From: Branchiostoma lanceolatum
Taxonomy: Eukaryota; Chordata; Leptocardii; Amphioxiformes; Branchiostomatidae
Direction: 5' to 3'
DNA length: 64,000 nucleotides
Assembly (NCBI RefSeq): GCF_035083965.1
Contig: NC_089724.1
Span: 6,674,501 to 6,738,500 of the forward strand
Shown: in pieces, positions 201 through 33,773 of the stretch
Position numbering within the stretch: the stretch's first letter is position 1
How the letters are laid out: every line of letters starts with the position of its first letter
Translations under genes and position numbers: made by a program
Notes under the pieces: generated by a model
Told to the model about the DNA's origin: nothing
Databases searched by the model: none
What the model saw: only the letters and a program-made list of their open reading frames with translations

Positions 201-8300
<8,100 letters not shown>

Positions 8301-10560: not shown

Positions 10561-10675
10561 AGGTCGATGACAGATGACCTACTTACGGTCATATGCCTCT
10601 TCTGTCGTAATCAGCATACAGGTAGAATTTATTATACATACAGATAATAGATATTTTATTGAAAAGCTTGCTCAG

Positions 10676-10870
10676 TCAGCCAGTAACATATAAGATATCA
10701 TAACGTTTCCTGTAGAGATGTTTGTGATTCGCCATGAATGTGCCGGCAGAGTTGACAATTATACCTAAGTAACAATAGGATGTAACTAATTCGACAGGGT
10801 TTTTCTGGTATGTAAACAAACAGTCTTTTGGAAGACGACCACCTTTAGAGAAAACTATAATGATCCCCAT
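10676..10870 (-). pseudogene. non-LTR retrotransposon reverse-transcriptase fragment
   Basis: The minus frame encodes IVFSKGGRLPKDC, then VTSYCYLGIIVNSAG. This is the K-x-x-V-F-x-KGGR ... Y-x-YLG arrangement that follows the catalytic core in Jockey/CR1/RTE-type reverse transcriptases. Only about 65 residues remain and there is no start or catalytic YADD box, so it is a dead fragment inside the repeat block. Confidence 0.65.
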
Positions 10871-13800
10871 TCAGCAGTTTTCATGCCAATGGAACACAGA
10901 CGGGATATCAAGTGCGCAATCAAAGCAAATGAAACCTGTAATGTATCAACATAAGGGGCGCTACTTAGAAAGTGGAGTTCAGACAGTGCAGTTGAGCCGT
11001 GTGTCACTTATTCCCCCAATTATGTGATGTGCAGTACTGGCAATGTTCAAAGAACTAGTCGCCATCTTATTTTTTTAAAATAAAAACCGCCGTCGTATAC
11101 ATGTTACGCATGTACTAACGTTGATGCTGAAGATGACCATGAACGTACGGTGTTTCCAGCAGCGTCGTGTCTTTCTGAAGACTTCAGATGCTGCTTTCCG
11201 TGTGTTTTTGCCCTGTGTCCGAGCAGAGCACAACTGTAGCGGCATATTCTTGCACACGAAATCTCCCTGGTGGTCATAACATTAACTTTCCTTTTGTTTC
11301 CACGTTATTTCAGCACATCAATTTTTTATCAAATGAATACGCCGGTAGTAGGGTAACAAACCTAAGAAAATACCCTACTGCATGTCCCACGTTCGCCCTG
11401 GGGTAAAGGATTTCTTCGTTGCGTACATGTGACTGCAGTCACTGCACAATTTCACTGCACAATGATAGACCACTGCGGGCGAGACTGGCCTCATGACACA
11501 CATTCTGTCAACAGGGTTCCATCTAACACCAAAGAAGTCGTATAAATCAACAAAGTAACAACAGTAAAAAGAAGAAAACAAATCATCGGTATGTAATCAG
11601 ACTGCGCCAACGTTTCGGCTGTGAATGGGGGGTCTGTAATGGGTTTGCTGGTGGTTCGCTGGTGGTTGGGAGTAAGTCAGTAGTGGTCAATGTGTATTTC
11701 AATAGTTAGATTTGACTCTTCACCTAAAGCTGGTTAGACTGCTCCCGACCTTGGTTAACTAGTGGTCGGGAGCCATGTTCGGCTATGCGTAACCGGGGCG
11801 TCAGGGTGAGTGTTAGCCACGCCCCCCGAATGCAAATGAGCGTCCCGCCCCATTTCGCCCCGAGCCGTTCCCACTCTGCGCACATCTCGCTGAAACAGAC
11901 GCAGCCAGCCCACCCTCGGGTAAACTTGTATGTTCTTGTGCGCTAGTGCAGTCAGCAACATAGCCAGGTATGGACTGTTTTGAAATTACACTAACTTAAA
12001 GTCATTCATATGTTACTAATGTAACGATTGATTTTTGACGTGTGACTCATGGACATGACCTCAAGTTCATTTCAGTTGCGAACTTGTGCTGACCACTCAG
12101 CGCTAACTTTGAAAGCTTAAGCAAGAACAAATAGGCAGTGACAGGGGTCTGTCTTAACATCATAACGTGGTGCCCAAGCTCTACTTACTAGTAGTATTTG
12201 GTCAAGTTTAACGAGTTTTATGTGGACAAATGAGGTAAGGTGACAACAACGGTTCGCTCTGATTTGATGTTTTTTAACTTTGAGTCTTTGAAAAACAGCG
12301 CACAGAAAAATCCCTTAAAGTGCGCCGTTTTACGATCACCTGGTGCCTTTACATGGCCAGTGCCGTACCTGTAGACTAGCTGTTGTTTAGGACGTCTTGG
12401 TTTGAAGCTCACAAACGTATCTTACAAGAGTAACGTTATGTTCACAGACGAAAAGGACGACAAGTGTGCAACCGAGCATTCTTTATTTCCTGTTTGACCA
12501 GTGTTACATGTCAATGTTTATGTCTCGGCCTTATGGCTGTTAGGAGGAAACGGTAGGGGAATACCTGAGGTCTTCCCGCCTGGCCATAAACAATTTTTGT
12601 TGGCTTTGAGTGTCCCAACTAATAATCACCATTCAGCAGTTTTCATGCCAATGGAACACAGACGGAATATCAAATGCGCAATGAAAGCAAATGAAACCTG
12701 TAATGTATCAACATAAGGGGCACTACTTAGAAAGTGGAGTTCAGACAGTGCGGTTGAGCCGTGTGTCACTTTTTTCCCCAGTTATGTGATGTGCAGTACT
12801 GGCAATGTTCAAAGAACTAGTCGCCATCTTATTATTTTTTTTGTAAAAACCGCCGTCGTATACATGTACATGTTACGCATGTGACGTTGATGCTGAAGAT
12901 GACCATGAACGTACGGTGCTTCCAGCAGCGTCAGTCTTTCTGAAGACTTCAGATGCTGCTTTTCGTGTATTTGACTGTATCCGAGCAGAGCACAAATGTA
13001 GCGGCATATTCTTGCACACGAAATCTCCCTGGTGGTCATAACATTAATTTTCCTTTTGTTTCCACGTTATTTCAGCACATCAATTTTTTATCAAATGAAT
13101 ACGCCGGTAGTAGGGTAACAAACCTAAGAAAATACCCTACTGCATGTCCCACGTTCGCCCTGGGGTAAAGGATTTCTTCGTTGCGTACATGTGACTGCAG
13201 TCACTGCACAATTTCACTGCACAATGATAGACCACTGCCGGCGAGACTGGCCTCATGACACACATTCTGTCAACAGGGTTCCATTTAACACCAAAGAAGT
13301 CGTATAAATCAACAAAGTAACAAAAGTAAAAAGTAGAAAACAAATCATCGGTATGTAATCAGACTGCGCCAACGTTTCGGCTGTGAATGGGGGGTCTGTA
13401 ATGGGTTTGCTGGTGGTTCGCTGGTGGTTGGGAGTAAGTCAGTAGTGGTCAATGTGTATTTCAATAGTTAGATTTGACTCTTCACCTAAAACTGGTGAGA
13501 CTGCTCCCGACCTTGGTTAAATTGTGGTCGGGAGCCATGTTCGGCTATGTGTAACCGGGGCCTCAGGGTGAGTGTTAGCCACGCCCCCGAATGCAAATGA
13601 GCGTCCCGCCCCATTTCGCCCCGAGCCGTTCCCTCACTGCGCAAATCTCGCTGAGACAGACGCAGCCAGACCACCCTCGGATAAACTTGTATGTTCTTGT
13701 GCGCTAGTGCTGTCAGCATCATAGCCAGGTATGGACTGTTTTGAAATTACACTTACTTAAAGTCATTCATATGTTAGTAATGTAACGATTGATTTTTGAC

Positions 13801-14719
13801 GTGTGACCCATGGACTAGTGTTGTGAACCTCAAGTTCCGGTGCGAACTTGAGCTGACCACTCAGCGCTAACTTTGAAAGCTTAAGCAAGAACAAATAGGC
13901 AGTGACAGGGGTCTGTCTTAACATCATCACGTGGTGCCCAAGCTCTACTTAATATTTGGTCAAGTTTAACGAATTTTATGTGGACAAATGAGGTAAAGTG
14001 ACAACAACGATTCGCTCTGATTGGATGCGTGTAACTTTTGTCTTTGAAAAAAAATGGCGCACAGGAAAATCCCTTAAAGTATGCCGTTCATCGATCACCT
14101 GGTGCCTTTACACGGCAGTGTCGTACCTGTAGACTAGCTGTTGTTTAGGACGTCTTGGTTTGAAGCTCACAAACGTATCTTACAAGAGTAACGTTATGTT
14201 CACAGACGAAAAGGACGACAAGTGTGCAACCGAGCATTCTTTATTTCCTGTTTGACCAATGTTACATGTCCGTGTTTATGTCACGGTCTTTTGGCTGTTT
14301 GGAGGAAACGGTAGGGGAATACTTGAAGTCTTCCCGCCTGGCCATAAACAACTTTTGTTGGCTTTGAGTGTCCCAACTAATGATCACCATTCAGCAGTTT
14401 TCATGCCAATGGAACACAGATGGAATATCAAGTACGCAATGAAAGCAAATGAAACCTGTAATGTATCAACATAAGGGGCGCTGCTGTGCGTTAGTTTACT
14501 TAGAAAGTGGAGTTCAGACAGTGCAGTTGAGCCGTGTATCACTTTTTCCCCAGTTGTGTGATGTGCAGTACTGGCAATGTTCAAAGAACTAGTAGCCATC
14601 TTATTTTTTTGTAAAAACCGCCGTTGTATACATGTTACGCATGTACTAACGTTGATGCTGAAGATGACCATGAACGTACGGTGTTTCCAGCAGTGTCATG
14701 TCTTTCTTAGACTTCAGAT
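10866..14719. repeat. tandem array of a ~1.76 kb unit (two full copies and a part)
   Basis: The anchor cattcagcagttttcatgcc occurs at 10869, 12630 and 14389, spacings of 1761 and 1759 bp, and the sequence between is nearly identical. The third copy breaks off near 14719 at cttcagat. Internal landmarks are cagcacatcaattttttatc, tgtcccacgttcgccctggg and gtaacgttatgttcacagac. No long ORF persists between copies, so it looks noncoding. It fills the gap between the two head-to-head WSC genes. Confidence 0.9.
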
Positions 14720-15050
14720 AACGGCCTAACCCTAATCGCAAGCCCTATAACCCTAAACCTAGCCCCAACCATAACCTTAACTCTGCGCACGCGCACTACT
14801 CTGTGAAGCATAAATCTCGCGGGGCATCAATTTGGCGTGACACCGGCCAATAGAATTGTTCTCCAAGACAAGATCAGTCAGCGTACCAATTATTTTTATT
14901 CTGTAGACGATTTACACAACATTAACTCAACAGGTGGTCAGGTAAAGAGACTACCTAACAAGGGCTATATCGTTACATATGCTGTAACTGAACACTGTAT
15001 ACGAGTATGTTTTGTATAAACAGCAGACATTTCTAATAATCATTTCCTAG

Positions 15051-16672
15051 AACACCTTGGGTGTTACCGGGATGGCCCACGTCACAAGTTTCCGAGAAAG
15101 GTGATGACGTCAGGCTCCATGACCAATGAGAAGTGCGCAAGCGCATGCCGGGCTGCTGGCTACACCTATGCTGGTACGTCATCATAACAGAATTATATAC
15201 TTCAGCTTTATGTATAACGTCACAGCGAAGAACAAAAAATAATTCTGCATAGCTGTTTTTGTTAAGTTGTATGTATATTACTTAAGATCATTTTCAAAGT
15301 AACAATCACAGTTTAGTGCTGTACCTAGTCAGCAACTTTTCGAGAGAATGTTTGAATTGGAACTACATGTATCTTCTTGGATCTGAGAATTTGAGACTAA
15401 TCCAAAAGAGTCCCCCGGCCTCGGGGATAAGACTGGTGAATACTGGCGCTGAGTTGCTTCTTTTGCAGCCACCGAGGTTTCCCGTTCCGGAGGCTGGTGG
15501 AGGAGCTCACACGACTGCCACTGTGGGATGGAGGCAGACTTCAACCAGCTGGGTGAAGGGGTGTGTGACAGTGAATGTAACAGCCGTTGCCGTGGCAACA
15601 AGAACCAGTTTTGCGGTGGGAGGTTCAGGATGTCCGTGTACAAGATCGACGCAGGTCAGTAAATGGTTGACCATCAGTGTTACCTTGAAATTAGCTTATA
15701 TGCCTATATACACAATGAACTGATTTATTTGCTTTAGATAATTAATAGAGTGACAGGCAGGCGGACGGATTCCTGAAATTCCTGTGAATTCTTCCAAAAC
15801 GGGCGTAAAATATACTATTAAGCTCGCTCCTAAAGCTTCGCTAAAATCTACCGCATTGTTCCACAGTTCCCAGTTGTCAGGACCAGCCCCGGCGGGTCAG
15901 TTCCCACTGGTACCAGACTGGCAACACTACCACCCTGCAGTATCGGGGCGAACCGCTAGACCGCCCCTTCGCCTTGACAACACCAGCCCTGGATGGAAAA
16001 ACTGCTATCCCCATTCAAAGTGAGAAACTTGAGTCTTTCTCGGATATAGAACTTAATATCGTTGAAGGGCCTATGCTGCTTACATACATTCTAAAATGGA
16101 CGTAGGTATCACTAGGTACATTGTTTGTAGGAAGGGTTACATGCAAATGTCTATCCCAGACTTTTGCCAAACGTTGTTGCAAAAATTCTGAAAAAGCCCC
16201 CCCCCCCAAAAAAAAAACACACACACAACAACAATAACAACAATTAGACGGGTTTGTTGGAAGCTAAGGGGCAGTACAAATGACTAAAAGAAATTAACAG
16301 GAACTTGACTTCTTACCCCACATGGACTATGTGCTTACTATTGGGATGTTATTTGCAGGTACACTGGTGAATCTGACGGCAAACATTGAAGCCTTCCCGA
16401 GTCGGTACCCCGCTACCACTGAAGAGGGGATACCCGACCTGGTCTCAGACTACACAGCCCTGCTAGCCTCGTTCCAGGCCCCGGGACTACGGCTGACACC
16501 AGGGACAAACACCGTGTTGGAGCTGGACCAACACTTCGCCATCAAGTCCTACCCCTGTAGTCTGGAGTACAACCCTGGTACAAACGGGCGGTCTAGAAGA
16601 GGGATTATGATGAGGATCATAGTCGTCAGTTACGATCCGTATGAAGTGATGATAGAAATCATATGTTATTAA
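15051..16672 (+). CDS. WSC-domain secreted-type protein with YPCSLEY C-terminal module (5' end not found)
   Basis: Four exons join in frame, all phase 1: 15051-15173, 15469-15654, 15867-16019 and 16359-16672 (stop TAA). Exons 1-2 give a complete WSC domain (HLGCYRDG ... CASACRAAGYTYAG | TEVSRSGGWW ... CHCG ... CGGRFRMSVYKI). Exon 3 encodes PSCQDQPRR...HWYQTGNTTTLQYRGEP. Exon 4 encodes LTANIEAFPSRY ... ALLASFQAPG ... LTPGTNT ... HFAIKSYPCSLEYNPG ... RRG. The visible part is 257 residues. Exons 3 and 4 are homologous to the last two exons of the gene at 27368-33773. The first exon needs an upstream phase-1 exon; no signal-peptide, Sushi or helical exon was recognised on the plus strand between 8300 and 15050, which is full of repeats. 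The gene may be 5'-truncated or have a distant first exon. Function unknown. Confidence 0.75.
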
Positions 16673-17062
16673 GTACCAGTACAGGGTACTTTTATGAGGT
16701 TTATCATTGATACCTCCTTGATAAATGGAGGTATTATTTCTGGTGTCTGGTGACGAACTCAAGGTCAAGTTTGGGCCCCTGCATGGCGCATGACCTTGGT
16801 TCTGCAGCAGAACTTCCGTTCTTTGTATCTATTGTCCTGGTCCATGTTATGGGCTTGTTATCTCTGATTTCACCCCTGTTGGTTTGTTTCTGTGTGCCTG
16901 TGTTTTGAATTCAATGAACTGTAAGTTTTTTTCCGGTATGCAGGCCTTTCATAGTCAAAGAAGCGATTTGAAAACGGCATGTGTCTATGTGTATCACTCG
17001 TCACCAAATATTAATGACCTTTATTTGCATGTTCTTGTCCCACATGGGCTAATCATGATATT
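16673..17062. other. 3' flank of the WSC gene
   Basis: No gene. The inverted pair taccagtacagggtactttta and gataaatggaggtatt lies just after the stop. The first AATAAA on this strand (17128) already lies within the next transposon, so the poly(A) site is unclear. Confidence 0.4.
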
Positions 17063-18144
17063 AACGTTGGGTAAGATAAATTCGGGATTTTTCCGATAAT
17101 GGTTGACCGAAATCAATCTAGCAGAACAATAAACCATCCTTTTTTTCTATTATTCTGTCAGTATCATGTACTATCTTTGCACTAATCATATATATGGTAG
17201 ATTTTGTCTCTAGTCGTGCTGACACCATAATATTTCAACTTGAAACTACCGTCCGCCGCACGCACAATGACGGTGCTGTCGGACAGGGGTGAACATTAAT
17301 TCGGGAGAGAAGATTCGTCTTGAATATCTTACCGCTAATTACATTTTATACAGCAGCTATTCGTTCCATCCTTGGCTTGAGGAGAGTGCTATGGATATAG
17401 ACGTGTCCAAGTAAAAAAATACACGAAAAAAACGGCCGTACCGCACACATCAGGCCTACGGGAACAAACCGTGTGTTGAGTCGGTAGCTATAGAACGTCA
17501 AAGTCGACATCCACCGTCATGGCAACGTGTACATTATTCATGGAAAGTTAGCCGGATGCCGTAGCATTGATATTACTACTATGTCCATGTATTCCTTGTT
17601 GTGTTAGGAGCAAACTTTGAGGAAAATATCGTCCTCAGTCCACAATCACACGCAACATTTAGACAAAAAAGTGTTCCTCACAAACCTTTGTCGTCTGCTT
17701 GACAACAGGATTCTGGTTAACAATATGGCGGCGGGAAAATACACGTGCCGTAGGTTGTAGCAACAAAGAGGGGTTTTGATGATTGATCACACTTAGAATC
17801 CAATTGCAGGTCAGCAATTTTTAGAAAATAAGTTGTCTTGTAAATTATTGTGTTTAGCAGGAAGCGGATGTGACATTTGTCTTATAAACCAGCCGACAAC
17901 GATGTAGTGTGATTCTCCCACGAAGCCCTCAGACTGTTCCAATAAGGGACGGAGAGTTTTTGTCCTCGTCGCCTTCTAATGCATGCTTATCGAAGCTTTT
18001 CAGACAGTGTTCTGAATACGTTAGTCTGTCAAGTTTGCATTTCTAGCGGTATTACTGATGTTGCATCTAGCACATATCCCTAAATACCCCGTTTTCGAAA
18101 AATCCCGAATTCAAGTACCCCACGAATTTATGTTACCCAACGTT
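17063..18144. mobile_element. 1.08 kb non-autonomous element, copy 1
   Basis: Both ends carry AACGTTGGGTAA-type inverted termini (aacgttgggtaagataaattcg left; cgaatttatgttacccaacgtt right). The interior matches, in reverse orientation, the element at 52479-53571 along its length (for example ggttgaccgaaatcaatctagc and agtcgtgctgacaccataat). No ORF of substance, so probably a MITE-like derivative of an unknown DNA transposon. Confidence 0.85.
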
Positions 18145-20700
18145 ACATCAAAGATTAAAGGTCACATATCATTATCTGTAGTGTTGATAGTGAACAAGGG
18201 AAGAGACAAAACAATTAAAAGCATATCTACAATTAAATCTATTGTTTACAAAAGTGTTATGATAACATAAAGATTTGATGACGTCCTGTCCTGTCAATAG
18301 ATAACGGCACGATAAAATCGTCACGATGACGACGCCGTGCTACCATTAACGGTTGTTGAGAACACTACATAAAAAGCTTTATATTGGTCCACCTTATACA
18401 TGTAAATAAAGTATCGTACGACATCTACACATTGTATCCATACATGTACAGTTTGTATTAGTACTTATATCATTATTAGCAAACGCACATTACTAATTCA
18501 TTTCAAAGACTCACCGTAAACCTGAGTTTCTATTGTCTTTTGTATACGATATTGCGTTTTGAATGCAATGAACTATAAGTTTGTGTGTGTGTGTAGTCTC
18601 CAACATGACCCAATGGATTGCAAAGACCGTATCCAACTGGAAGAGGGAGCTTGTCAAAACGTACTTCCTCTGCCAGTTTGATACGGTCTTTATGCAACCT
18701 ATACAAATGTAGATCTGCTTGAAGATCATGTGTCTGCAGGCCTCCATAAAAGAAGCTATTAATAAAAATAGCATTTGTCTATATGTATCAGGCGTCATCA
18801 CACATCTAACTGTTATATATATGTCCACAGAACTACGACGTATCTTTGCATTCCGGGCGTGACAAACTGTTGAAAGCGCACCCTGTCCCGTACGTCATAT
18901 GACAGGTAATTCGAGGACATTATTGAGACAGTTTTGAACGTGTCCTACACAACTCATTTGTCCATATTGTTGTAAATTCTTGTCAACGGTCACGGTTCTG
19001 TTCACAGGGGACGGCAAATTAATATCGTGGTTGCGTTCGCACCGTATCTATATCTATTCAAAACATGTAACAAAGCTACCCTGCGATGAGATCCTTATCT
19101 ACACGGTAATGTCACTACGCACTGAACCCCTGTCAACTGCAACCCAGTCAAATTCACCATTCTTACAACATACAGAAGAACTTTATTGCACGACAATTGT
19201 ACACGGTACAAAGTATGCACATAATACAACATAAGACTACACGGATGTAGACATGAAAAGGTGTTTATCTAGCGCGTTTAGAGCCTGGAGGAAAAGTTCG
19301 ACCGCAGCAGACGGCGCCAGTGTGGAAACTAAACGTGGACCCAGAAAACGTGCTAATGTAGTATTTCGGGTGTGACAAGACTTGCTGTTGCCAGAAACAC
19401 CTTAAAGTACACAAAAGTATGACTCATATTTCTGCACAATAGGAAGCCACATTTGCCTGTGCTCGGAATTGATGGCCTTCGCGATAAAAGTACAATGGAA
19501 ATTCCCTCCAGGAGGCCTTATCACAATTGTGTTACGGTGTTTAGAGTAAAGTAGTCCTATGTCATAATTGTTTGCTCGTCTATTTTCTGTAATTTGTAAT
19601 TAACCTTCGCACAAGTTAGCGATAAACATATTTTAAAAACACGTACTTACAGGACCCGACGTAAAACACTTACCGCTATGCTGAACAATACTATCATAAC
19701 ACAGTACCTCCATCTCATGTATGTATTGACGTCGCCACTGTTACTGATCATGGCGGGCAACTTTACTATTTCTTGCTGTTCGCTACCATGCCGACAACGA
19801 CTGTTTATAACATCGTATACATAGTATATACTGTATATGCATTTAAGTTCACGTGGTTTTTATTTCGGGCTAAGGCTGAAATGGAGTGTGTGCTGTGGTT
19901 TTAAGTCTGCGGCAGCGCTATAGTCAGATACTGCTACAGTATTTGACAAAAATGTTTCCGGTGACTTAAAGTTCACTATAAAACGGTTCCCGCGAAAACT
20001 GCGAACATAAAACCATCGCGAACATTTCTGCATTTACAGTATATAATAAATCCGCTATACACATGCAAATAAATATCGTATGATATCTACACGTTTATCG
20101 TACGACGATTACTCATTGTTATTATTAGAAAACGTACATAATTCACTCATTGTATAACCTACAAGTTGTATCGTACTACGATCACTCATCTTATTATCAG
20201 CACAATATTCATTCAGTTCAAGCTAAATCCCTGTTGTCTTTTGTATACGAAATCGGTGAACGCCTTAAATTCCACAATTAGAATGATGTAGCTTCCTATT
20301 GTGCAGACATATGAGTCACTTTTTGTGTCCTTTAGGGTGTTTTTGGCAACAGCAGGTCTTGCCACACCCAAAATGCTACATATAAGCATGTTTTCTGCCG
20401 GGTCCAAGTTAAATTCCTGTGCAGGAGACGTCTTCTCGTCCGAACACGCTAACCAGTAAGTCAAAGAGTGTACTGTTTTCTCAGCATTTACTTGTTCTTG
20501 ATACTAACAGACTCCCAGTATATACAGTCAAACCTGCCTAATGCGACCACCCGGGGTACCAACCAAAACCGGTCGCGCTGGACAGGTGGTGGGCTTGATT
20601 GTCCTTCAGAAGAGGACGTTAAGCCGTCGGTCCAGTGTATCTTTAAGTTTATCTAGTCTCTACCAGCCTAACTACGCTGGCTATAGGCTAGGGAGAATGT
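18145..20700. other. intergenic, repeats only
   Basis: No gene recognised. It holds an imperfect hairpin at 18622-18691 (aaagaccgtatccaactgg against ccagtttgatacggtcttt), a TACTGTA-family element at 19836-20045, and a tRNA/SINE-like fragment near 20524-20640 (cagtcaaacctgcctaatgcgaccacc and ggacgttaagccgtcggtcc). Confidence 0.6.
19836..20045. mobile_element. TACTGTAAATGCA-ended MITE, complete copy
   Basis: It begins tatactgtatatgcatttaag and ends catttctgcatttacagtata, giving imperfect TACTGTAAATGCA inverted termini. The interior has the gtggttttaagt and gcggcagcgctatagt blocks seen in other copies at 21124-21225, 44530-44755 (inverted), 47850-48073 and 58020-58155. Confidence 0.7.
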
Positions 20701-20780
20701 AATCTCCAAGCAGATCTATAGGTTGCGAAGACCGTATCCAACTGGCAGGTCTTCGCAACCTATAGATCTGCTTGGAGATT
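20701..20780. repeat. perfect 33-bp hairpin with 14-nt loop
   Basis: Bases 20701-20733 (aatctccaagcagatctata...) are the exact reverse complement of 20748-20780. The loop is gtatccaactggca. Loop and stem motifs recur in the looser hairpin near 18595-18720. It probably derives from the same MITE family, but the perfect stem would also fold as RNA. Confidence 0.9.
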
Positions 20781-21339
20781 AGGGAGAATGTTTGCCAGGG
20801 AAGTTTGGCAACCATTATGGTTTCATTTGCAGGAGAAGAAGTTTACTTTACAGCGGACTGACTCTCCTAGCCAATTATTCATTTTTTTTGCCGAATTCTA
20901 CGATATGTACCCTCGTAGGAAGGTATGGTGGAGGCTAAAGTTTATCCACAAGGGTAGGGGTGACCGGGTGTGCTTGGTCATATTCCTGGTAACATTGCAG
21001 GTTCATATCTTCTTTCTCATCACTGAAGGAGTGATATCTAATTTGTGTTTGGTTTTGAGAAAGAAATTTTACTTTTTACAAAAGTTATGTATCACATTTT
21101 GTATGGTGCTTTCTTGATACATGTACTGTAAAAGTTTGCGTGGTTTTTATTTCGTTCTAAGGCGAAAATGAGTGTTTGCGGTGGTTTTAAGTTTGCGGCA
21201 GTGCTATAGTCACATACTGATACATATGTTTATACTCCGCCTGAGATGACATTGGTATCATACTGCTGTTTTAGTAATAAGTCTTATCAAAACTCATTGG
21301 TATGGCAGTGGTGTAAGAAAAAAAGCTGTTTAATGTCAA
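20781..21339. other. 3' flank of the Neuralized-like gene
   Basis: No gene. 21124-21225 is a partial TACTGTA-family copy. A minus-strand AATAAA (plus-strand tttatt near 21146) inside it could serve as poly(A) signal for the gene ending at 21565. Confidence 0.4.
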
Positions 21340-21560
21340 GTTTGATGCTTAACTACCTCAGCACATAGTGGTATCACACCACTATTCAATGCTTATCTGC
21401 CTTAGCATGCAATGGTATCACACCAGTGTTTGATGCTTGATTGTCTTGGCATGCAGTGGTATCACACCAGTGTTCAATGCTTTACTATCTCAGCCTGCAG
21501 TGGTATCAGACCACTGTTCAATGCTTGACTGTCTCAGCTTGCAGTGGTATCCCACTGATG
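21340..21560. repeat. ~45-bp minisatellite in the 3' UTR of the Neuralized-like gene
   Basis: About five copies of a unit containing gcagtggtatcacaccagtg and ttcaatgctt, starting near 21367, 21411, 21456, 21500 and 21543. The array ends immediately downstream (in transcription) of the stop codon at 21565, so it would be transcribed in the 3' UTR. Confidence 0.85.
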
Positions 21561-21564
21561 TTTG

Positions 21565-24500
21565 TTAAGCTCTGTACATCTTGATCACGTCGAACAACGG
21601 AGCGCGACAGATGGGACAGTTGGCGTCTTCCACCTTGAGCAGCAGTCCGCACCTGTCGCACATGCACACGTGTCCGCACGGGTACGCCACGCTGTTCACG
21701 GGCCGCTCGTAGCAGATGGCACACGTCTGGTCGTCGTGGTACGGCTGGCGAGGTTCTGTGTCGGGTCGACGGTCCGTAGGGGTCGGTGAAGGTGAGGAGG
21801 GAGCTGGAGACGGTTCTTCTGCTGGCACCACACCTGCAAGAGAACAATGGGAAGAATACTTTTGACAGATATTTAAACCAAGGAGGTTATATAGTCTATA
21901 TAACCTCCTTGTTTAAACCATACACACAACAAAAGAGGTTGCTACTCCAAGAGGGAGCTTTCCAGACAAAATCTGTCTCTTCATCAACCCGGTAAAGTGG
22001 AGTTCTCTTGTCACATGACTTGATGTTGGTTATCCTGTGACAAGATATAGTCATATACAGGCTTGAGAATTTATGTGAAGAAATTATATCAGGAATTTCT
22101 TCTATAGCAACAGATGCCCAAACATTCTCTTTTTTATCAAAATGGTGTGAAATATAACTATTGATATTTCTTCCCAAGACGCAGAAGTGTGGACTTCTCT
22201 TTTTGATAAAAAAAAAGTGAAACTGGACTATTGTTATTAGTGGTAGAAAGTATAATGGGTACAAAACTGTATCACATCAGATACATGATATGTTCATTTT
22301 TGGTACCAATGAGAACAACAGCAATTCGACTGCAGCTGAGACATCTTGGACAATATTCAAAATTTGTAGAAGAAAATAATGTTGCTAGGGACACGAAATC
22401 ACAACTAGCCTGTGTTTACACAAGCTCTCTGGCAGAGGTAAATGACCCCCACCCCTAGGGGGCGGTTACAGTTGGGCCGGCCGCTAGGAGCACGATTTAG
22501 TCAGGCTAGAATCACAACCAAACAGATGAAACATAGGAGGTAAGAAAAAACCTGAGGAATTCTACCCCACCTGCTAGTCTGATTTTCCTGACAAACAGGG
22601 TGAGAATAAAAACTGCCCAGAGCTGCTGTCCGGTCTCCACCTCCAGCACCACCTCCAGATCACCCCCGTTCACCCCATAATGGACTCTCCCGCTCCTGTC
22701 AAGCAGGAAGGTCAGCTTGTCCCCACTCTGCAGTTTCTCCAGGTATTTGAACGTCCAGTACTCCTTCCTGCGGCTTGCCGCAGCGCGGCTCGACGGCACG
22801 TGCTTCTGCTGCAGGGCTGCAGGATTCGCCGCAGTCAGACCAAAGTCAAAATTACTGATCGATGAATCGGCTTCCAGTATGTAAATGAGGAGAATCTGCC
22901 CCGGCTGGAGTGGTCTGTGCGTGAAGACGAGGCCGTTGAACATACTCTGGCTGACGTTGGCAGCTACACTTTTCAGCCCTTTTTGATCGGATTCCAGGCG
23001 TACGTTACTCCCATGTACGGGATGGAAGGACAGACTTGCAGTGTGTGCTGACTGCCCGTTGTCCAGGCAACCTGGCCGTGACAACGTTGACCTTGAGCCT
23101 GAGGACGGAGTTTGTAAAGTTCTGTGAGGGGCCACGCTTGTTAGCGGGGTCCTTCTTATTTGCCTCAAATGTTGACTTTGTCCATTTGGTATATGTGATT
23201 CTGGTTGGGAAGAAGTCAGGTGACTCTGAGATGCATTGTTTGACATGTGGTCTGTTGACTGCAAAGTACTTTGTAATGATACATTTTCCCTTTGACCTTC
23301 CTCCAATGCTGAAGGTAGAAGTCTAGTCCTAGCTACAGAGTTAGGAACACCAACACTTGCATTCACATTTCCACTGACGGAGTCAGGACGTTCTCCACTG
23401 GATTGCAAATGAGCTTGATCTATATTGTTAGAGACAGCTGCGTGTACATTATTTGTACTGTGCACAGTACTAGTGTCTGTGTGCAACAGTGTGTTGGTTG
23501 AACTGCCTGTTGCCAGCAGTCCAGGCTGGTCTGCCACTGTTCTGATGCTAACTCTGCTATCTGTTCTGTCTTCACCATTCTGTAAGGCAGGATTTACTGT
23601 TCGAGCTGTACTTTCTAGGGACGTTGTTGCAGCAGAACTCTCTTCTGTAGAGATGGCCTGATGGTTGTGTTGTAAGATGTCTACGAATAGATTATCTCTG
23701 GAAAAGAGGAAAAGTATATTACTGGAGTAATTTGCATTTGCGGAAAGTATAGAATAAATTTTGACTTCAGAAATGTACATGTGCGAGACATTCAGAAAGT
23801 GACTTTGAATGTCCGTTTCCCCCCCTTCATCTGCTGTCAATTAATACTGCAACTCTTGTTTCTTTCGTAACTTTATGTTCACTGTTTTCACTGTCACCTC
23901 TGTACCGTGAACTTATCATCATTGTGAAAAACCTGTTGTAATTATCTATGATTCCTTCAAAGATCCATTCTGTAAATCACTTGTATAAAGTTCAATGAAA
24001 ATCTCCATTTTCCTTACACCATGATATTTTGCTACCGTGAGGATAAAGTAAATTACAGTAAGCAGACAGTACCTTGTTCCATCCGGTTGACCATTGACCT
24101 GTGACCCAGCAGGGCACAGCTCCATGACCCCAGGCTGGGAGGTCGATGCCCTCAGCACCAGTGCCCCCTGACCTTCGCCCCGAGGGGTCAGGGTGATGGC
24201 ATGGATCTCCCCATGGGGACTGGCTGTGACAGTGATGGCTTGGTATCCTTGGAAGAAGCAGAATAAGCATATTTCAGTGGGCATTTTCATCTTCAGAAGT
24301 TAGAATTACACATCACAGGTGTTAAATACCAAGGAAGGCCGAGCATACATGACGCTCCTGAACATGGAGTCATTGCAGGCAATATGAGAGATCACTGTTT
24401 TTGTTTACATCTGGGGAATTCGTAGGCAAAATGACATTAGTAGATTAGGTTACTAGGAACGATTGCAGTCAGATGTGCAAAAGTTAGGTGTGACAGTGTA

Positions 24501-25143
24501 ATGTAACCAGCTGCTGCTGTGCCGCGTGCCTGCGAAGCTGGTGTGTTACGCCGAAGGACGGTTATATCGGCTATGCAGATACAGATACTAATTGATATTG
24601 AAATTAGCAGATCAAATTATCAATCAACATTTGAATTAATCTTTTGAGTTCCATCTGATTTTTGGCAGCCACTGCGTTGCTGTGACGTCATCGCAATCGC
24701 TCATATAGAAGAGCAGAAAAGACTCAAACTGGTGTCTCAAAGGCACTTTTACTGCACATAACAGATACAGTATCCATGCAACAAACAAACTTGTTTGGTT
24801 AAAGCAAGGAAGTTACATAGTCTATATAACCTCCTTGGTTAAAGTAAGTCATTTGGGGGGGGGGCTTAAAATACAATACAGTCATCAAGAAGTAAGAATG
24901 GATAACCATCGTATGGCGACATGCCATCCTTTTTAAGTCACCAGTAGTCTACAGATCCTTTACACTGCCGATATAACCCCCATACCTACACCATTTCTTC
25001 ATCAAAGTTTATGATTAGGCTTATGACAATTATACTACCCTACTTTTGTCCGCCCCCCTCCCCTCGGCTCAAACTTTACCTGTAGTTGGGACGTTGACAG
25101 CCGCCTCACGCCCACTGGAAGCGGCGCTACTTCCTGTCCCCAT
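21565..25143 (-). CDS. Neuralized-like E3 ubiquitin ligase (NHR + RING)
   Basis: Four minus-strand exons: 25143-25080, 24247-24073, 23697-22571 and 21833-21565, with frame-consistent phases 1, 2 and 1, giving 544 residues. The start MGTGSSAAS fits an N-myristoylation signal. A Ser/Thr/Asn-rich low-complexity region (about residues 80-300) precedes one Neuralized homology repeat (about 300-455: SLSFHPVHG, FNGLVFTHRPL, WTFKYLEKLQSGD, LWAVFILT). A C-terminal C3HC4 RING begins at Cys493 (CAICYERPV, CGHVCMC, CPICRAPL) and ends DVIKMYRA, like the tail of vertebrate NEURL proteins. Established: NEURL proteins are RING E3 ligases, and NEURL1/Neuralized act on Notch ligands. One NHR rather than two resembles NEURL3, but NEURL1 orthology cannot be excluded. 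The exon 2 segment has no recognised domain. Confidence 0.85.
21873..21918. repeat. short palindrome AACCAAGGAGGTTATATAG
   Basis: An inverted repeat of about 20 bp per arm, centred on ta at about 21896, in the last intron of the Neuralized-like gene. A second member lies at 24798-24843 in its first intron. It is probably a tiny MITE derivative. Confidence 0.85.
22447..22503. repeat. dispersed repeat, gggggcggttacagttgg family
   Basis: The block gggggcggttacagttgg...ggccgctaggagc recurs at about 62520-62560 with few differences. It is intronic, with no coding content. Confidence 0.6.
23842..24061. mobile_element. TACTGTAATTC-ended MITE (family X1), copy 1
   Basis: The block taactttatgttcactgtttt ... 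cctctgtaccgtgaacttatc ... aaagtaaattacagta recurs at 40132-40356 and 44974-45178 (reverse orientation) and 57056-57268 (same orientation). Complete copies run from TACTGTAATTC to GAATTACAGTA, an 11-bp inverted terminus. It lies in the intron between exons 2 and 3 of the Neuralized-like gene. Confidence 0.75.
24425..24600. repeat. dispersed repeat with an inverted partner at 60665-60810
   Basis: aacgattgcagtcagatgtgc, gtgtaatgtaaccagctgc, gaagctggtgtgttacgcc and tatgcagatacagatac all reappear, reversed and in opposite order, at 60665-60810. It is a moderately diverged interspersed element. Confidence 0.7.
24798..24843. repeat. short palindrome, second copy
   Basis: ggttaaagcaaggaagttac atag tctatataacctccttgg: the same family as 21873-21918, in the first intron of the same gene. 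Confidence 0.8.
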
Positions 25144-27202
25144 GTTTAGATGTACCTAATCACACCGCTTAAGCCGTGTGGTTCATAATGCCGTTAAAAT
25201 CTGAAGTTTCGAAGCAAAAACCAAGTTCTCGGTCCAGTCATGACGTCCGACGCTGTTGCCATGTCAATATCTTCAACTTTGACCTTTTAAAGAAGGCAGC
25301 AGAATACAGGAAGTATTAGTAAGTTCAAATGCATACTGTCGCCCTCATACTACAAATGAACTTTTTTTACGGGGACACAACAGCTATTACATGTGCACGT
25401 ATCTTCATAGCGTATGTAACGTTAACAGAAATAGAATGTTCGGGAGAGAAAACCGGACGGTAACTTTTAGTAGTTAGCACAAACGCCCCCTTGCGATCCA
25501 CTGTGTGCTTGCACCATTCGATCCATATATGGTTGACACTTATGAAAGTCTTATCAAATTTAAAGGGCTTGAGGATAGCTATAGGAGGTATTAAATGGTC
25601 CTGCATGTGAGGAAATGATAAATTTCGCCCGCACTACATTCGGAGTCTGCAGAGGATGTCATCCATAAAATTTACTTGCTGTGGCCTAAGTAACACTTAT
25701 AACGTTAGAACCAATAGTCAATTTGAGGAATTACACTGTTTTATGTACGTATAACGTTATCAATGGGACGTTCTTTGGAAAACATTTGGAGATTATCCGT
25801 CCCAGATCGAAGAAAATGAAAACTTGCGGCCGGTTCAGACTGTTCTTTTGTTCTATGATCGTCTGTGTATACCTCGGCGTCATTAGCACTACGAAGGCTC
25901 ACGTCACAATAAGGTATATCTACCTCACATCATAACCTAACCTTTTAATAACCATATGTGAGATTCCTTGCAGCATTGATTTTTGAGTGAACGAAACTCT
26001 GGATATGACGTCATGATTGTGGCAGTGATGCAGTATGATTGGGAGACTGGCACCACCAGTCAAACAAAAAACTGACATTGGAACAAACTATAACTATCTA
26101 CGGATTCAAAATTAACCAACTTTAACATCTTTAAAACATGGCAAAATCTACTAGATGTACGCATGAAAATCAGTTCAATAGTAAATATCTTTACAAAAAG
26201 ATGATACAAGTCGTATAACCCTCGGTAACTTAGACACACCATGGCCAGTGTACTAGAACTTTAACACCCCTCCCTTTGTTTTCCAGTGGTACCTTCTCCA
26301 CTGAACGAAAGTCACGACGACATACTAACCACACACTGATAGTATCATACTAGTGACATGTTGTTGTGTATTGAAGGCATTCGGTGGCACACATTGTGTT
26401 CAGTAACTGTCTGGTTCCTATAAAACCATTACAGGTGAGTCTGCTGACTTTGTTTCCTGACGTCAATGAATATCACATGGTATGCGTAAATCACAGTGTA
26501 AATTATAACGCTGGTAACCTTTAAAGAAATTACGTTGGGTTCATATGACTTTTTACTTCAGGTCAGTTCAGGACTGAGAACTTGCGACACTGTAAACTTG
26601 TCTTTTTGGAGACATCTGTTACTTTTTGAGTATCAAATGACTTGGTATTTGTCAAGACGTAACATTACGAGCTTGGCAGATCATGGAACATTACGTATAC
26701 GCCAAAAATACATGGTACATTAGTTTGTTTTGAATGAAAACCGGGGGTGATTTCAGACAAAGACTGGTTAGACGACTCTCCCGACCCTATGTCACACTCG
26801 CCCTATGCCTGAAGGGAGAACGTGGGCACCAACAATTACTACAGGCACATGTCGTTCTGGTGGCTTTCACCGACCTTGTGTCGTTTCTAACGTTTTAACG
26901 CGGCTTTACCGTCAATTCAAACAACGCCTTTTGCAATTTCTTCTTAAACTTCACTTAGTCCGATGTAGATATTGTACTGGTTTGTAGTATAGTTGACACA
27001 TACGTAGTTACAATGGGAGAGACATGGCTTGATAATGAAGGCGTATGAAATCGGAATGTCTTAATGAATGAAGACCTTTATTGTACATTTTCGCCCCACT
27101 GGGCTAAGCACAGGTCACATGGGCCGGGGCTAACAATCATATTCATGTGCATATAAACGCATACTCTAGCACTTTCGGCTTCCTCTCGCTTCTTGGTAAA
27201 TG
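25144..27202. other. intergenic, no gene recognised
   Basis: This is the upstream side of both flanking genes (Neuralized-like on minus, secreted Cys-rich protein on plus). Several small ORFs are open, but none has domain or splice support. Near 27064-27180 a tttattgtacattttcgcc segment resembles the 3' end of a non-LTR element in reverse. Confidence 0.5.
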
Positions 27203-27210
27203 TATAAATA
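27203..27210 (+). promoter_or_regulatory. possible TATA box of the secreted Cys-rich gene
   Basis: TATAAATA lies about 160 bp upstream of the ATG at 27368. It would place a start site near 27235 with a 5' UTR of about 130 bp. Based on sequence only; AT-rich background makes chance matches likely. Confidence 0.35.
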
Positions 27211-27367
27211 TAGGAGGCTGTATGGTTCCTTATGAGTTGGTTTATATGGCATATCTACGCTGACGTATATGATTAAGAACTTGTATAACTTATTTGCAAA
27301 TCAGCCAATCCCCATGCCTCAAAATGTGTGTTTCTGTTATCATAGGATACCACAGAGGAACTGCCCA

Positions 27368-30300
27368 ATGAAGTGCGTTAGTGTCGTGTTGCTATTGGTC
27401 TGCTATGTAGCCGTAACACACGGCGATTGGCGGACATGGCTGACGAAGTTAGTACGGAACAAGGTCGAGAATGACGTGTCGGACGGAGAGGTGTGTCAGT
27501 GGTGCTTTCTGTGCGGGGAGGACTCGATTCCACAATACACAAAATACAGGCAAGTTATCTTTATCATTTTTTAACGAGTTTGCTCAGTGAAATGATAATG
27601 TCATTGGTAAATGGAAGGCGAAGGGGCCACCTCTGGGTACTGAACTAAGTTCGTGGGACATATATAACGTTACATGTAACGTTAGGTGACTATGTCAGGA
27701 GCTGGCGGTGAACGTTGGTCGTATACCGGAGGGAGACACTTGTCAGGGAAAGAGTGATATGTGACTGTGAAATTTGTGTGTAAAACGCGAGATACCATTA
27801 GGGATCATTAGGGGTTGTCATAAGAGGGTATCAAATCTTTGCAGGAAGAGGCATGAGATTATAGTTTCACACATTATACTTTTTCAGTCTGTTCACATGT
27901 TATAGCTACAGTTATGACATGCATCAACTCTTTGCACTGAAGGAAGATCATGAGATGGTAGTTTAACATATCATATACTTTTTTTTCAATCTGTTCACAG
28001 GTTGTCGCGACAGTTATGCCAAATGTGCAGGGAAGACTGTGGCCCGCCCTGTAACACCACCTGTACGCAAGGTAACTGATGAATGATATTCTTCCATGAT
28101 GTTGGGCCGCCTGAACTGAGTAACCATATTTTGTAGGTTGTAAGATATCATTAGCCAGTGTCATTAAGTGTAGCCTGTATTCCCTAGCACTTATAGACGT
28201 TACAGAAAGTATCGGGTAAAAACCAGTGATGTTTAAAACTTCCCCCCTCATAAAAAGATGTTCGTAACATTTCAATGTCACATTGTTGACTTTCTTTGAA
28301 TACGCGATTTGTTATATTCACCTATTTGAGATTTTCACCACTGCTTTGGTGAATGATAGACCTTTATTGCACGTTTATGCTGTCTTTATGCTGTTTATGT
28401 TGTCCTTTTTTAGTGAGAAATGACTTTTTCATAAGTGTAATGATACTCTTTCTGACCATCCTTGCGACGTAGTGTCGCAATGCGAATTCGGACGTATCCA
28501 CCGTCTCTTTCCTTGCCAGAATATGTACAACAATTTCCATACATTTAAACCTGCCCTCCGTAGACCTGCTGAATTTCCCGGCTATAAACGCGTCCATGAC
28601 TGCCATGATGGGGGACATGACTGACCCGGGCGAGGTGGGGATGAATGACGTCATGGACCATCTACAAGAGCTGGAGGATCTCGGTAGGTTGAGATTAGTT
28701 ATGATCGACACCGCGGGAACATATTTTAAACTCTTGAAAAAAGGCCACGGCCGAAAAGAATGTAACATTTCAAGGTTAAAAAAAGGTTGGAAGGGCGGTT
28801 GGAGTTTTCGTTAGAACATTACATATTTGAAGACTCATCATCAATATAATAAGTTTATTGCAAATTCATGCCCGAAGGCTAGATGCAAATAAAATACATA
28901 AAAGAACAGTGTACAAAATAGTTATAAATGCTGCTTATCTAAATTATAACTAGTGAAGGATTTGACTTCTCTTTTGTAAGCAATGGAAGACGTAATGTCC
29001 CACCTTTTCTATAATTTGTGGTTTTTTGGTAGTTAAAAGAAGAATAGTCTTTTCTTTGTCTGTAAGCTTAGGGAAATTCGGATAGATTTTAGTGGTCTGA
29101 ATAGACAACTCATTTCGTAATATAACATCTACTAAGTAAACATGATTCCAACAGGGTACATAATTCCATATATCATATGGGTTGAGATGTGTTTGGACGC
29201 ATCTTTTCAGGGTGGTGGAATTATGTACCCTGGTGGAATCGTGTTTACTTAGTAGATGTTATATGTTAAGATTTGTTGGGCTCATTTTCTGATATATTCA
29301 AAGAACTGCTCCCGTCCTAGTGTCGAGGAAGGATGATTATATATTTATGATGATGCTAAGCTCGAAGCCACGCTTATAGAAAATAGAAGCTTTCCCTCTA
29401 CCATGGCTCTGTTCATTTTCCAACCTAACTTTATTCTGTCATATAATACACTTCTGTATATATAAACTGTGCATACCTGTGTGTGTGTGTGTGGGGGGGG
29501 GGGGGGGGTTCTGCACTAAAGATCTCTCAAACACACTGTTTTTCAAAGTGGCGGATTTATGTAACCCGGTGGATTAATGTAAATGGAGGTTAAAGATTAA
29601 CTACTAAGCTGCTGAGTGAAAAACTGCGTATTAAAAAAAAAATCTGACGCTGTGTCCCCAGAGCCTCGGTGCGGTGCCCGGACCCTCCACTGGCGGCTGG
29701 CGGGGCGGCGTGTGATGCTGGAGTACGGCGGCGGGGACCACAGGATGACGCTCGGCTTTTCTGACGAAAGTCTGGACGACCTAATGGAAGACCCCGACTT
29801 TACGGGTAGGGGTTTTTATCAGGACGTGCTACTAGAAAAGCAAGTCCAGTCCATGCACGGCCGGCAGACGTGGGTGTATGTGAGTGTGTGCGCCTGAGTT
29901 TGTGTTTTTTTCCCTCCGTGGTGCAAGTTTTGAGTTTTAGAAAAATATATTGTACGTAACACAAAGTTAAATCAATGAAAAGACATATAACGTCACAACA
30001 GATGAACTTAAAGGCATCCAGAGCATTTTATGTGGCTTGAAAATTGGAAATATTCTAGTTGCTGTAATCTTTATGAAATTGTCATTTAATGCCACTGTTT
30101 ACCACATTTGCGTGATGATCACATGTCACAAGCGCTCAAAAGCCACGCGAAAATAAGCTACACAATGACCCCTTTAGTTTCACGCGCCTAGTGTAATTAG
30201 ATTGAAACAGAACTCAAAACGGTTTTTTCGTCGGTAATGGACCGTTCCCGTCGAACACCATATAGAACCCCCTGTTCTATTTGGAACACCTCCGTCAAAA

Positions 30301-33300
30301 ACAGCGCTAGTGGGACAGAAATGACAAGCAGAAATGACAATGCATATCTGGGACAGATATCTCACTGCGTTGGCTACATGAATACCCAAGAAAAAAACGA
30401 AATGAAAAAGAAAATATCTCGGGCACTCAAGGGGACGGAGCTTACGTAACACATTGCCAACTACTACCAAGTTCGTCTCTCATGTACTTGTGCGTTATTC
30501 CTGTGTTCGACTGGAACGGTCAGTTCTCTGAAAGTTCCGGCGACGGGACGTCACGTTCCAAGAAGTCGGAAAATTTGAGAACAAAAACGGCGGCGCTGAC
30601 AGCGCTTGGATTTTTTTTTTGAGTGCTCAACACACAGCGACATCGCATCTTTGCTCCTTGAATATCGATATGTAATGGTATAGTGTTATTGAAACTTACT
30701 ATGTGTAGAAATGGCTAAAAACTGGAGTTTTTATGTTTAGCCATAAGTATGGCTCAACATATTGTTTTCTCTCATGTTTCTTCTCCTGTCAAATCTTCAA
30801 ATCGATTCATCTCTGTCATTTTTTGACCAAATGACCTGAAATTTGGTACAGAGGTAATGTAGGCAAAAACCAATGTACGTTCTTTTCCTTTTTTTGATAT
30901 TGACCTTGAAAGTGATTTTATTGAGGTTTTTAGGCTATTTTTAGCATATCTTGGCCTCCTGCGCCCTTGTATTTCAACCGAATGACCTGAAATTTGCTGT
31001 ATATGTGGCTTGAACAAATATTTAAAGGACTACATTCCCATTTTTGGCATACATATATTCAAAACGATTTATTTTGGGCTTTCTTGACAATATTTGCCAC
31101 TTCTGTCACTTTCAATACTACATATGACCTACAGGTCATTGACCCCGAGTGCCTTGCACCTGGCCAAGCTTGAAGTTTGCTTACGAGGAGGAAAGACCGG
31201 ACATAAACATTTAACGTGATTATCGGGAAAACACCATGTTCCCTTAAACTCAGTGGTTAAATTGCAGTTTAGGAAATTTTATAACAGAAAACAAGTTAAA
31301 TCAATGATTTTGTGAATGTTTATTCTAGCATTAGTTATTCCAGATATTTTCAAACTCCAAATTCTTCAACACAACACGGGAGATCGTTTCTCCTCAGACT
31401 GGCGCGACACTCCTGTCAAAATTGATTGATGATCTCTCTCTGCCGCCGACTTCATACATGATCAAAGGCGGGTGGTAGGCGGTGCCTTCCTACATGTCCT
31501 ACGTACGGGCGTATGGATCGTAGAATTCGGCAAAAAAGGAATGATTAGGCCAGTAGAGTCAGTCCCCGGTAAGGTCAATGATTCGCCCCTTTGCGCTAGC
31601 TTGTAACGTTAAATGAATGTACCCTCTGGTGGCCAAACTTCACTGACAAACTTTCTCCCTATTATCATCATGAGCTTGCGTTAGTCTGGTACTAGTGACT
31701 ATTATGTGCCGGGAATGTTTATCTATCGCACGCCTTGGAAGGAAGTTCAACCATGATAAATGGTCGGCCGTTGCGAAAATTTGGAATCCCATGCTGTTGA
31801 TTTTTGTGATTGAATCTGTAAGAAAATATATTTTCATGTCGTTCATGTTTTTGGGACGGACGCCGGGACGGGGTGAATTTTTTCTATCATTTTCGTCCCG
31901 TTAGTAATGCAAATCGAATCGTGTTGCACAAGAGGCAAAACACTAAAAACGTGGGTCTTGTGGAGTGTTTTGGAGCGGGAAAATGCCGGATATTAGCGGT
32001 GCCGAACAGTGTACATCGTCGCGCGCGGGTGACGCTCCGTCAAAACAAATCCGCTGGTGGTCTAGCGCGGCCACCGAAAATAGGCAGAAACACACAGGAG
32101 GACTTAGCACCTTCGTTTATGAGGGCAATTGTGAAAATCTTTTGTTACAAATTGTTCGAACATTGAAACATTTGGATAGATGGTTTGAAACTGTTCTAAA
32201 TAAAGAGATTTTTGTGTAGTTACGTTCGAAATGTTTCCAACGTATGTGAAATGAGTTCAAACATGTTATAAGTTTCAATTCTAATTGTTTGAACACTTTA
32301 GAACTGTTGTGACTTAGACATTATTTTAATCAAAATAGTTCAAACATATTACAAATATTATATTAAAACCCTCTCGGTGACTTTGAATTGACCCAAATAT
32401 GTTGTTTTTGGTCATTTCCTTCGTCTCCTGTCAAATCTTCATATGTATACTATGGAAAACTTCATTCTTCCCTGGGGCTGATCTTTTTTAATTCAATTTT
32501 GAACTGGGTTGATTATGCGCAAGAGTGTAATTTTCAGCGGATATTTTTCGACTGGTTTACATGGAAATGGCACGGAATATCCCATTCTTGCAAGGGGAGG
32601 ATTCTTTAATTATTTCTTTCAATTTTGAGCTGGAATGATTATGAAAAAGTCCATTCTTTAGCAGAAGTGTTAATCAATTAGTGGATATGGTTGTGGACTG
32701 GTCCATATTGTGTTGAGGTGCTACTGGAAGACTCAGTTTTGGACTGGGGTGATTCATTTTTTTAGTGCAAGTATCTTAGAATGGTCCATTGTTATTTGGG
32801 GAGAGTCCATTTTTTGCATGGCGAGGAGTATGGCTAAACATGCTGTATTTGCTCGCAAATGTTGCCTTTCTAGTTTAATTTGAGTTTGAAGCCACATAAA
32901 GTGCTCTGGGTGCCTTTAAATCTGGTGCAAAAATCATTACATTTTCATCTTTATTTATTTTACCGGGGAAGTCACAGTGAGACCTGCGGTCTGTTTTTAG
33001 GTGTCCCTGAACACATACAATACTCATAAACTAGAACATACACACATTACATAGGTAAAACAAACGGCCCTGTAGTTCCAGAGCAAGTTGCTAGGGGGCC
33101 CAAGCCTACACCACTTCTTCCTTGTATTACAAGCTATCTGCCACTCAAGAAAATCAAGACCATAGAACTTCTGCTGCAGTACCAAGGTCACATACTAGGG
33201 GGCCCAAAATCGACCTTGACTTTCGTCTTCTCAACACCTACATTTCGAGGAGTCAGTATGCTGAGTACAATAGTCCGGAATCACAAACACACAGAGAGAC

Positions 33301-33773
33301 AGACACGCCCAAAACTATATCTCCATTTTTCATGGAGATAAAAATAGCAATTTAGCAAACTATTTGAACTATTCTATGACATACATTTACTGATCATGAA
33401 CTTCCGAGATATCTCAAGTTCCATCCTAACCCACAATTTGATGACCATCACAGATGACTGTCCGGAGTTCATGTCCAAGATGGCGGACTGTGGCAAGATG
33501 GAGGAGGTTGCCGCCCAGTTCCCTACCATGATGGCGGACATGATGTCGGACTTCCTACCTGACTGCCACGCTATGGTCAGCTCCTTCAACTGTACGGACG
33601 ACATGGAACTCACACCGGCGGGCGATACCATGATGGACATGGGGGAGAACTGGGCCATAAAGACCTACCCCTGCAGTCTGGAGTACACCCCTGTAGTACG
33701 GCGGGGGTTCTGGCAGTGGGTCATAGTCAAGGGCAGACCATTAAGGATGAAAGTACGGATCAGGTTCTCTTGA
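27368..33773 (+). CDS. secreted Cys-rich protein with YPCSLEY C-terminal module
   Basis: Five exons: 27368-27549, 28001-28071, 28564-28683, 29662-29805 and 33454-33773 (or 33409-33773), about 278 residues. ATG at 27368 opens a clear signal peptide (MKCVSVVLLLVCYVAVTHG). Exons 1-2 encode a Cys-rich segment (CQWCFLC, CQMCREDCGPPCNTTC). Exon 3 is helical (EVGMNDVMDHLQEL) and matches the exon at 6461-6583. Exon 4 (PRCGARTLHWRLAGRR...LEYGGG) matches exon 3 of the WSC gene. Exon 5 (AMVSSF...MELTPAGDT...NWAIKTYPCSLEYTP..RRG) matches that gene's last exon. The first intron must use a GC donor (ACAG|GCAAGT) to keep frame. The 33454 acceptor is favoured because exon length (320 nt) then matches the paralogous 314 nt. 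No known family was recognised; extracellular location is inferred. Confidence 0.75.
28845..28925. repeat. retroelement 3'-end-like fragment
   Basis: ataagtttattgcaaattcatg and the tttattgcacgtttatgc motif at about 28350-28380 resemble reverse-oriented 3' ends of non-LTR retrotransposons. Intronic; low certainty. Confidence 0.3.
29121..29263. mobile_element. 143-bp MITE with ~45-bp inverted ends
   Basis: It starts tataacatctactaagtaaac and ends with the complement. The arms continue through gattcca.cagggtacataattcca, leaving a short loop around 29166-29215. No clear target duplication. It lies in intron 3 of the secreted Cys-rich gene. Confidence 0.8.
29478..29509. repeat. (GT)n(G)n simple repeat
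   Basis: gtgtgtgtgtgtgtg is followed by a run of about 18 G. Confidence 0.95.
29806..33408. other. long last intron of the secreted Cys-rich gene
   Basis: No further exon was supported. The block aacatgttataagtttcaat...caaacatattac at 32255-32395 recurs at 58442-58578, so it is a dispersed repeat. 30770-31020 has near-repeats of aaatgacctgaaattt. Otherwise nothing was recognised. Confidence 0.5.
32255..32395. repeat. dispersed repeat, partner at 58442-58578
   Basis: About 135 bp nearly identical to 58442-58578 in the same orientation (aacatgttataagtttcaat, gtgacttagacatt, caaaatagttcaaacata). No termini recognised. Confidence 0.8.

Follow-up and report, generated by a model that had tools for sequence, protein, structure and literature searches.

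In some fungal proteins, WSC domains (PF01822) reportedly bind carbohydrates, and the animal WSC protein Kremen is described in complexes with Dickkopf and Lrp5/6 (PMC9024836). The structure of yeast Wsc1 displays a surface without an apparent glycan pocket, which counts against glycan binding (PMC9024836). In lancelets, exon shuffling has been reported to favour 1-1 phases, and Huang et al. 2014 listed 941 candidate novel domains that are conserved between two lancelets but missing from vertebrates (PMC4284660). Lancelet gene models reportedly tend to contain errors, and many lancelet architectures have been attributed to gene-model errors (Banyai and Patthy 2016, PMC4967905). The main text of the lancelet pangenome paper (PMC12373286) names neither WSC nor TIL, and the open-access literature combining amphioxus or B. 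lanceolatum with WSC or TIL yielded titles on an immune receptor, limpet glue and spider venom.

The DNA analysed here, 64,000 nucleotides of Branchiostoma lanceolatum (contig NC_089724.1, positions 6,674,501 to 6,738,500) and referred to as the window, contains two neighbouring genes, A and B, on the same strand and 10.7 kb apart. As read from the DNA, the last two exons of each encode one homologous C-terminal domain. Gene A and a second WSC-type gene, A-prime, resemble the described WSC proteins in carrying a WSC domain with the CGG motif. However, the lancelet WSC is placed between a helix exon and a module that Pfam does not name, gene B has no WSC match, and the WSC translation of gene A contains nine cysteines, whereas eight are described for yeast Wsc1 (PMC9024836). 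Similarity to TIL proteins (PF01826) is seen in the relatives P0002 and P0004, to which a TIL domain is assigned; in contrast, no TIL exon was found in the window and the module is not part of TIL. With the candidate domains of Huang et al. 2014 (PMC4284660) the module has in common that it is conserved among lancelets and was not found elsewhere in our searches.

The C-terminal module of genes A and B

The module is encoded by four exons in the window:

15867-16019, + strand: gene A, module exon 1, 153 nt, phase 1-1, identical in P0001
16359-16672, + strand: gene A, module exon 2 up to the stop codon, 314 nt, entered in phase 1
29662-29805, + strand: gene B, module exon 1, 144 nt, phase 1-1
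33454-33773, + strand: gene B, module exon 2 up to the stop codon, 320 nt, entered in phase 1

Translation of the four exons and reading of their borders showed that the coordinates, exon sizes, phases and motifs given in the original prediction are all correct. AG acceptors precede all four exons, and a GT donor ends the first exon of each pair. The B. lanceolatum protein P0001 is 100% identical to the gene A module over 154 query residues; this query began two residues upstream of the module and omitted its last two, which agree too. The same exon joins are carried by annotated proteins of several Branchiostoma species, these being annotations and not transcripts. Since both the module homology and the exon borders are legible in the window DNA, neither depends on gene models alone.

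The proposed homology of the two exon pairs holds. BLASTP aligns module A with module B at 55.8 bits (E 2e-15, 27% identity over 136 columns), and their Smith-Waterman score of 137 lies far above that of 2000 shuffles (mean 26.5, sd 4.3, maximum 55). A profile-profile comparison likewise covers 136 columns with a probability of 98.4%. Because a joint profile of A and B is circular, profiles were rebuilt from the family of each gene alone (12 rows for A, three rows for B) and used as an independent test on the 2820 reading frames of the window. The A-only profile retrieved the second exon of gene B with an E of 1.3e-12, and the B-only profile the second exon of gene A with an E of 4e-11. The first module exons reached only E 3.4 and 3.0 in the same search with the profile of the opposite family. 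Adding the first exon to the second raised the score from 46.0 to 50.6 bits (+4.6), which none of 300 shuffled first exons equalled, and in the other direction from 40.9 to 43.8 bits (+2.9), which was reached by three of 300. The joint profile, which contains both families, found, among the window frames, the four known exons alone within the inclusion threshold. By these comparisons homology of the second exons is certain; homology of the first exons gives a weak signal and is likely, on account of the small score gain together with matching position and phase. Two cysteines are invariant between the A and B modules, one in the PxC motif of exon 1 and one in the YPC motif of exon 2.

Distribution and tree of the family

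Relatives of the module were collected by three word-based searches of about 5.8 billion proteins, which need shared five-residue words and limit length. At E up to 10 the searches returned 11, 3 and 14 proteins from 71, 1048 and 4211 candidates, respectively. Together these are 15 distinct proteins, and all 15 are Branchiostoma by name; the lineage restriction that had been proposed as a check is thus found, and, owing to the five-residue-word requirement, restriction to lancelets holds at the sensitivity of the search. Among prokaryote genomes, 44 pattern matches contained no relative by tblastn. With E allowed up to 10, Pfam matched neither of the window modules, in agreement with the earlier statement that the module was not recognised as any named domain.

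A tree of the modules was calculated from 14 rows, omitting the truncated P0015 and P0011 with its aberrant end; it is unrooted and was drawn with a midpoint root. The A rows (10) and B rows (4) are separated by a branch with support 100/100, and good support is limited to two of the 11 inner branches. Both sides include B. lanceolatum, B. floridae, and B. belcheri or hybrid records. Since the same species are represented on each side of this unrooted tree, the A-B split is probably older than the split of the sampled Branchiostoma species. Between the window and another B. lanceolatum assembly, 135 of 147 module positions agree for A and 144 of 154 for B.

Gene A, gene A-prime and their WSC domains

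Upstream of the module, two WSC exons of gene A were located, also by tblastn of relatives:

15051-15173, + strand: gene A, WSC exon 1, phase 1-1
15469-15654, + strand: gene A, WSC exon 2 with the CGG motif, phase 1-1

No exon for the signal peptide, TIL or helix of gene A was found in the window, including positions 8300-15050. In contrast, P0002 from the other B. lanceolatum assembly has both TIL and helix. The missing 5' exons of gene A may reflect a difference between haplotypes, truncation of this copy or an effect of the assembly. As gene A is without helix, TIL and signal exon in the window, the full order of the A exons was taken from A-prime and the relatives. Gene A-prime (201-8300, minus strand), which corresponds to P0008 of B. 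lanceolatum, is arranged head to head with gene A:

8222-8300, - strand: gene A-prime, signal-peptide exon, left in phase 1
6461-6583, - strand: gene A-prime, helix exon, phase 1-1
696-818, - strand: gene A-prime, WSC exon 1, phase 1-1
201-383, - strand: gene A-prime, WSC exon 2, phase 1-1; the module exons would fall left of the window

The exon order of A-prime is signal, helix, WSC1 and WSC2, each exon being left in phase 1, and the joined translation agrees with P0008 over its N-terminal part. Every intron read in A or A-prime is in phase 1. The signal exon is separated from the helix exon by about 1.6 kb, and the helix exon from the WSC exons by about 5.6 kb; a GDSL lipase-like open frame (4182-4871, minus strand; PF13472, E 8.7e-11) lies within this large intron. 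Positions 8300-15050 harbor direct repeats about 1.76 kb apart, plus inverted copies. Comparison of the WSC exons of A-prime and A gave a dN of 0.12 and a dS of 0.33 (100 codons), values consistent with selection on the protein.

WSC is matched by 11 of the 15 family members. P0003, P0005, P0006, P0008, P0009 and P0010 score 43.1 to 64.7 bits against PF01822 (cut-off 27.8), and gene A itself, as P0001, is precomputed as PF01822. P0004, the model of which is without WSC exon 1, stays under the cut-off with 20.4 bits. The shared C-terminal module itself is not WSC, having no Pfam match at E up to 10. TIL is matched at E up to 10 by three of the 15 members: P0004 clears the cut-off of 24.5 with 28.7 bits, P0005 has a partial match of 13.9 bits under the cut-off, and P0002 and P0004 are precomputed as TIL. 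ADGRF3_N matches five of the 15 members; where inspected, in three of them, the match lies on the TIL region. One member matched an NCBIfam enoyl-ACP reductase (E 0.011), which was taken as chance.

Gene B

The upstream part of gene B consists of three exons:

27368-27549, + strand: gene B, first exon, with the signal peptide (recognised by eye) and the beginning of the Cys-rich region, GC donor, phase 2
28001-28071, + strand: gene B, second Cys-rich exon, phase 2-1
28564-28683, + strand: gene B, helix exon, phase 1-1, probable homologue of the A-prime helix exon

The reading frame is open across the five exons of the gene and ends in a stop; the first intron is in phase 2 and the rest are in phase 1. 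P0012 of B. floridae aligns across the full 278-residue gene B model with 77%. The first intron (27550-28000) has an apparent GC donor, and the junction residues are identical in P0012. Without its first 19 residues, the protein has a high content of methionine (8.9%) and aspartate (10.4%), with a computed pI of 4.5. Pfam detects no WSC in the gene B family (P0012 to P0014) at E up to 10. The Cys-rich region was considered as a diverged TIL and rejected, the profile-profile probability against the TIL region being 3%. A PBP_sp32 match on the Cys-rich region of P0012 (E 0.0045) is under its cut-off.

A probable third shared exon

The helix exon of gene B (28564-28683), ...GEVGMNDVMDHLQELEDL, resembles the A helix exon, ...AELGLSSVVQHVQELRTN. 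When four of the nine extracted A helices were each compared with the three B rows, the real score of the resulting 12 pairs was reached by 0 to 4 of 1000 shuffles. Comparison by profile gave 1/1000 and 0/1000 shuffles reaching the score, and profile-profile comparison a P of 6e-5 over only 17 columns. A blind search of the 2820 window frames yielded E 1.5 and 0.064, outranked by two and one unrelated or chance frames, respectively. Because the helix exon is weak in the blind search, the case leans on its position too, and the exon is called probably common to the A family and gene B. The shared unit, originally described as two exons, therefore probably begins one exon earlier; the sharing as such is borne out. 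A description of the exon as a clearly amphipathic helix was dropped owing to mixed results (shuffles per 1000: 254 for A-prime, 0 for P0006 and 47 for B).

Helix, complete WSC and module are combined in P0003, P0005, P0006, P0008 (A-prime), P0009, P0010 and the truncated P0015, while P0002, P0004 and P0007 possess helix, the second WSC exon alone, and module. In P0011 the helix is joined straight to the module; this protein, one gene model with an aberrant C-terminus, is the sole A protein that has the helix and no WSC.

Structural models of the module

Models of P0003 and P0012 have a mean pLDDT of 41.7 and 37.8, respectively. At this mean pLDDT of about 40, both place helices in the module, followed by a run of strands; strands ahead of the helices appear in the P0012 model alone. 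The fold search was carried out with the P0003 model alone (mean pLDDT 41.7). Its best matches cover the WSC part, where Kremen and yeast Wsc1 were found. When whole relatives were compared with Pfam, the matches that fall on the module were all under cut-off: a GBS104-like Ig domain in P0010 (0.07), Dbl7 in P0011 (0.27) and DEPDC5 in P0014 (0.21). A profile search of the PDB had two hits, a flagellin hook motif protein at E 0.018 and, at E 0.73, a chimeric spike-HR1 mimic; neither has a stretch passing alone, and both were treated as chance.

Origin of the two genes and of the domain

It appears probable that A and B are duplicates of one gene composed of signal, helix and module, which gained different upstream exons by phase-1 insertion. 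This is suggested by the position of WSC between helix and module, by the phase-1 introns and by the distance of 10.7 kb. The ancestral gene would have comprised a signal peptide, the helix exon and the two-exon domain, and its duplication would predate the divergence of the sampled Branchiostoma species. The A copies would have received a TIL exon, which is seen in relatives alone, and the WSC exon pair, the pair being set between the helix exon and the C-terminal domain; the B copy would have gained two Cys-rich exons, placed ahead of its helix exon. Duplication, date and direction of change are thereby proposed, next to domain homology, intron phases and the exon order of A-prime and the relatives, which are observed.

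Alternatively, exon shuffling could have copied the two-exon module onto two unrelated secreted genes that lie close together, so that the last two exons alone are shared. The N-termini are indeed unlike, with a TIL to Cys-rich probability of 3% and without a WSC match in B, a phase-1 intron opens the module in both genes, and the match between the helix exons spans few columns and is weak in the blind search. Moreover, an open frame with a Neuralized domain (22512-23840, minus strand; PF07177, E 5.1e-26) lies between A and B, so the two are not directly adjacent. However, the helix exon just upstream of the B module resembles the A helix exon beyond nearly all shuffles, and 10.7 kb is a distance expected of local duplicates. 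We regard this transfer as unlikely; duplication with different upstream exons seems the better account. The view of A and B as two unlike genes is accordingly weakened by the helix exon that these neighbours probably share, although their N-terminal parts do differ. That the resemblance is an artefact of chance, or of exons spliced otherwise than proposed, is extremely improbable. Exon 1 alone is not significant and errors are reportedly common in lancelet gene models (PMC4967905), but the independent profiles refute an artefact for exon 2 homology (E 1.3e-12 and 4e-11), and the same joins recur in annotated proteins of several Branchiostoma species. As to the domain itself, it could belong to a known extracellular fold that occurs elsewhere in animals, having diverged too strongly for word-based searches and shallow models to detect it; this is a real though lesser possibility. 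The searches require shared five-residue words and 15 sequences were available, the two models with their mean pLDDT of about 40 provide no fair fold test, and helices precede a strand run in both. Against such a fold, Pfam has no match to the window modules at E up to 10 and only matches under cut-off in the relatives, and the PDB profile search yields E 0.018 and 0.73 at best, with no stretch passing alone.

Possible function and significance

Secretion of B and of the A relatives is inferred by eye from their hydrophobic starts. The label secreted thus suits gene B, while for gene A, which is without a signal exon in the window, it was read from relatives. One disulfide is suggested by the two cysteines that A and B share. 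Tentatively, the products would be secreted, with the domain held by a PxC-YPC disulfide and serving both genes as the end that binds other proteins or itself; the WSC version might tie this end to a carbohydrate or protein surface. Taken together, this proposal is rather doubtful. Quite unlikely is that the module represents a lancelet-specific domain of new fold, with WSC, TIL and Cys-rich recognition cassettes swapped among phase-1 exons and the working end kept constant. If true, it would amount to a small chordate system in which a single effector carries exchangeable recognition heads.

The locus is an instance in which the insertion of phase-1 exons into paralogues can be read, a WSC pair having apparently been set between two exons of an older gene, and it delimits an orphan domain that is open to definition and testing. 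By itself it provides no new mechanism, lancelet-specific domains and 1-1 shuffling having been reported genome-wide (PMC4284660).

Other features of the window

A tandem repeat at 2945-3469 has a 45-base period and comprises nine register copies of a 165-base reference. A tRNA-Glu with anticodon CTC is located at 58957-59027 on the minus strand, where Rfam also calls a tRNA.
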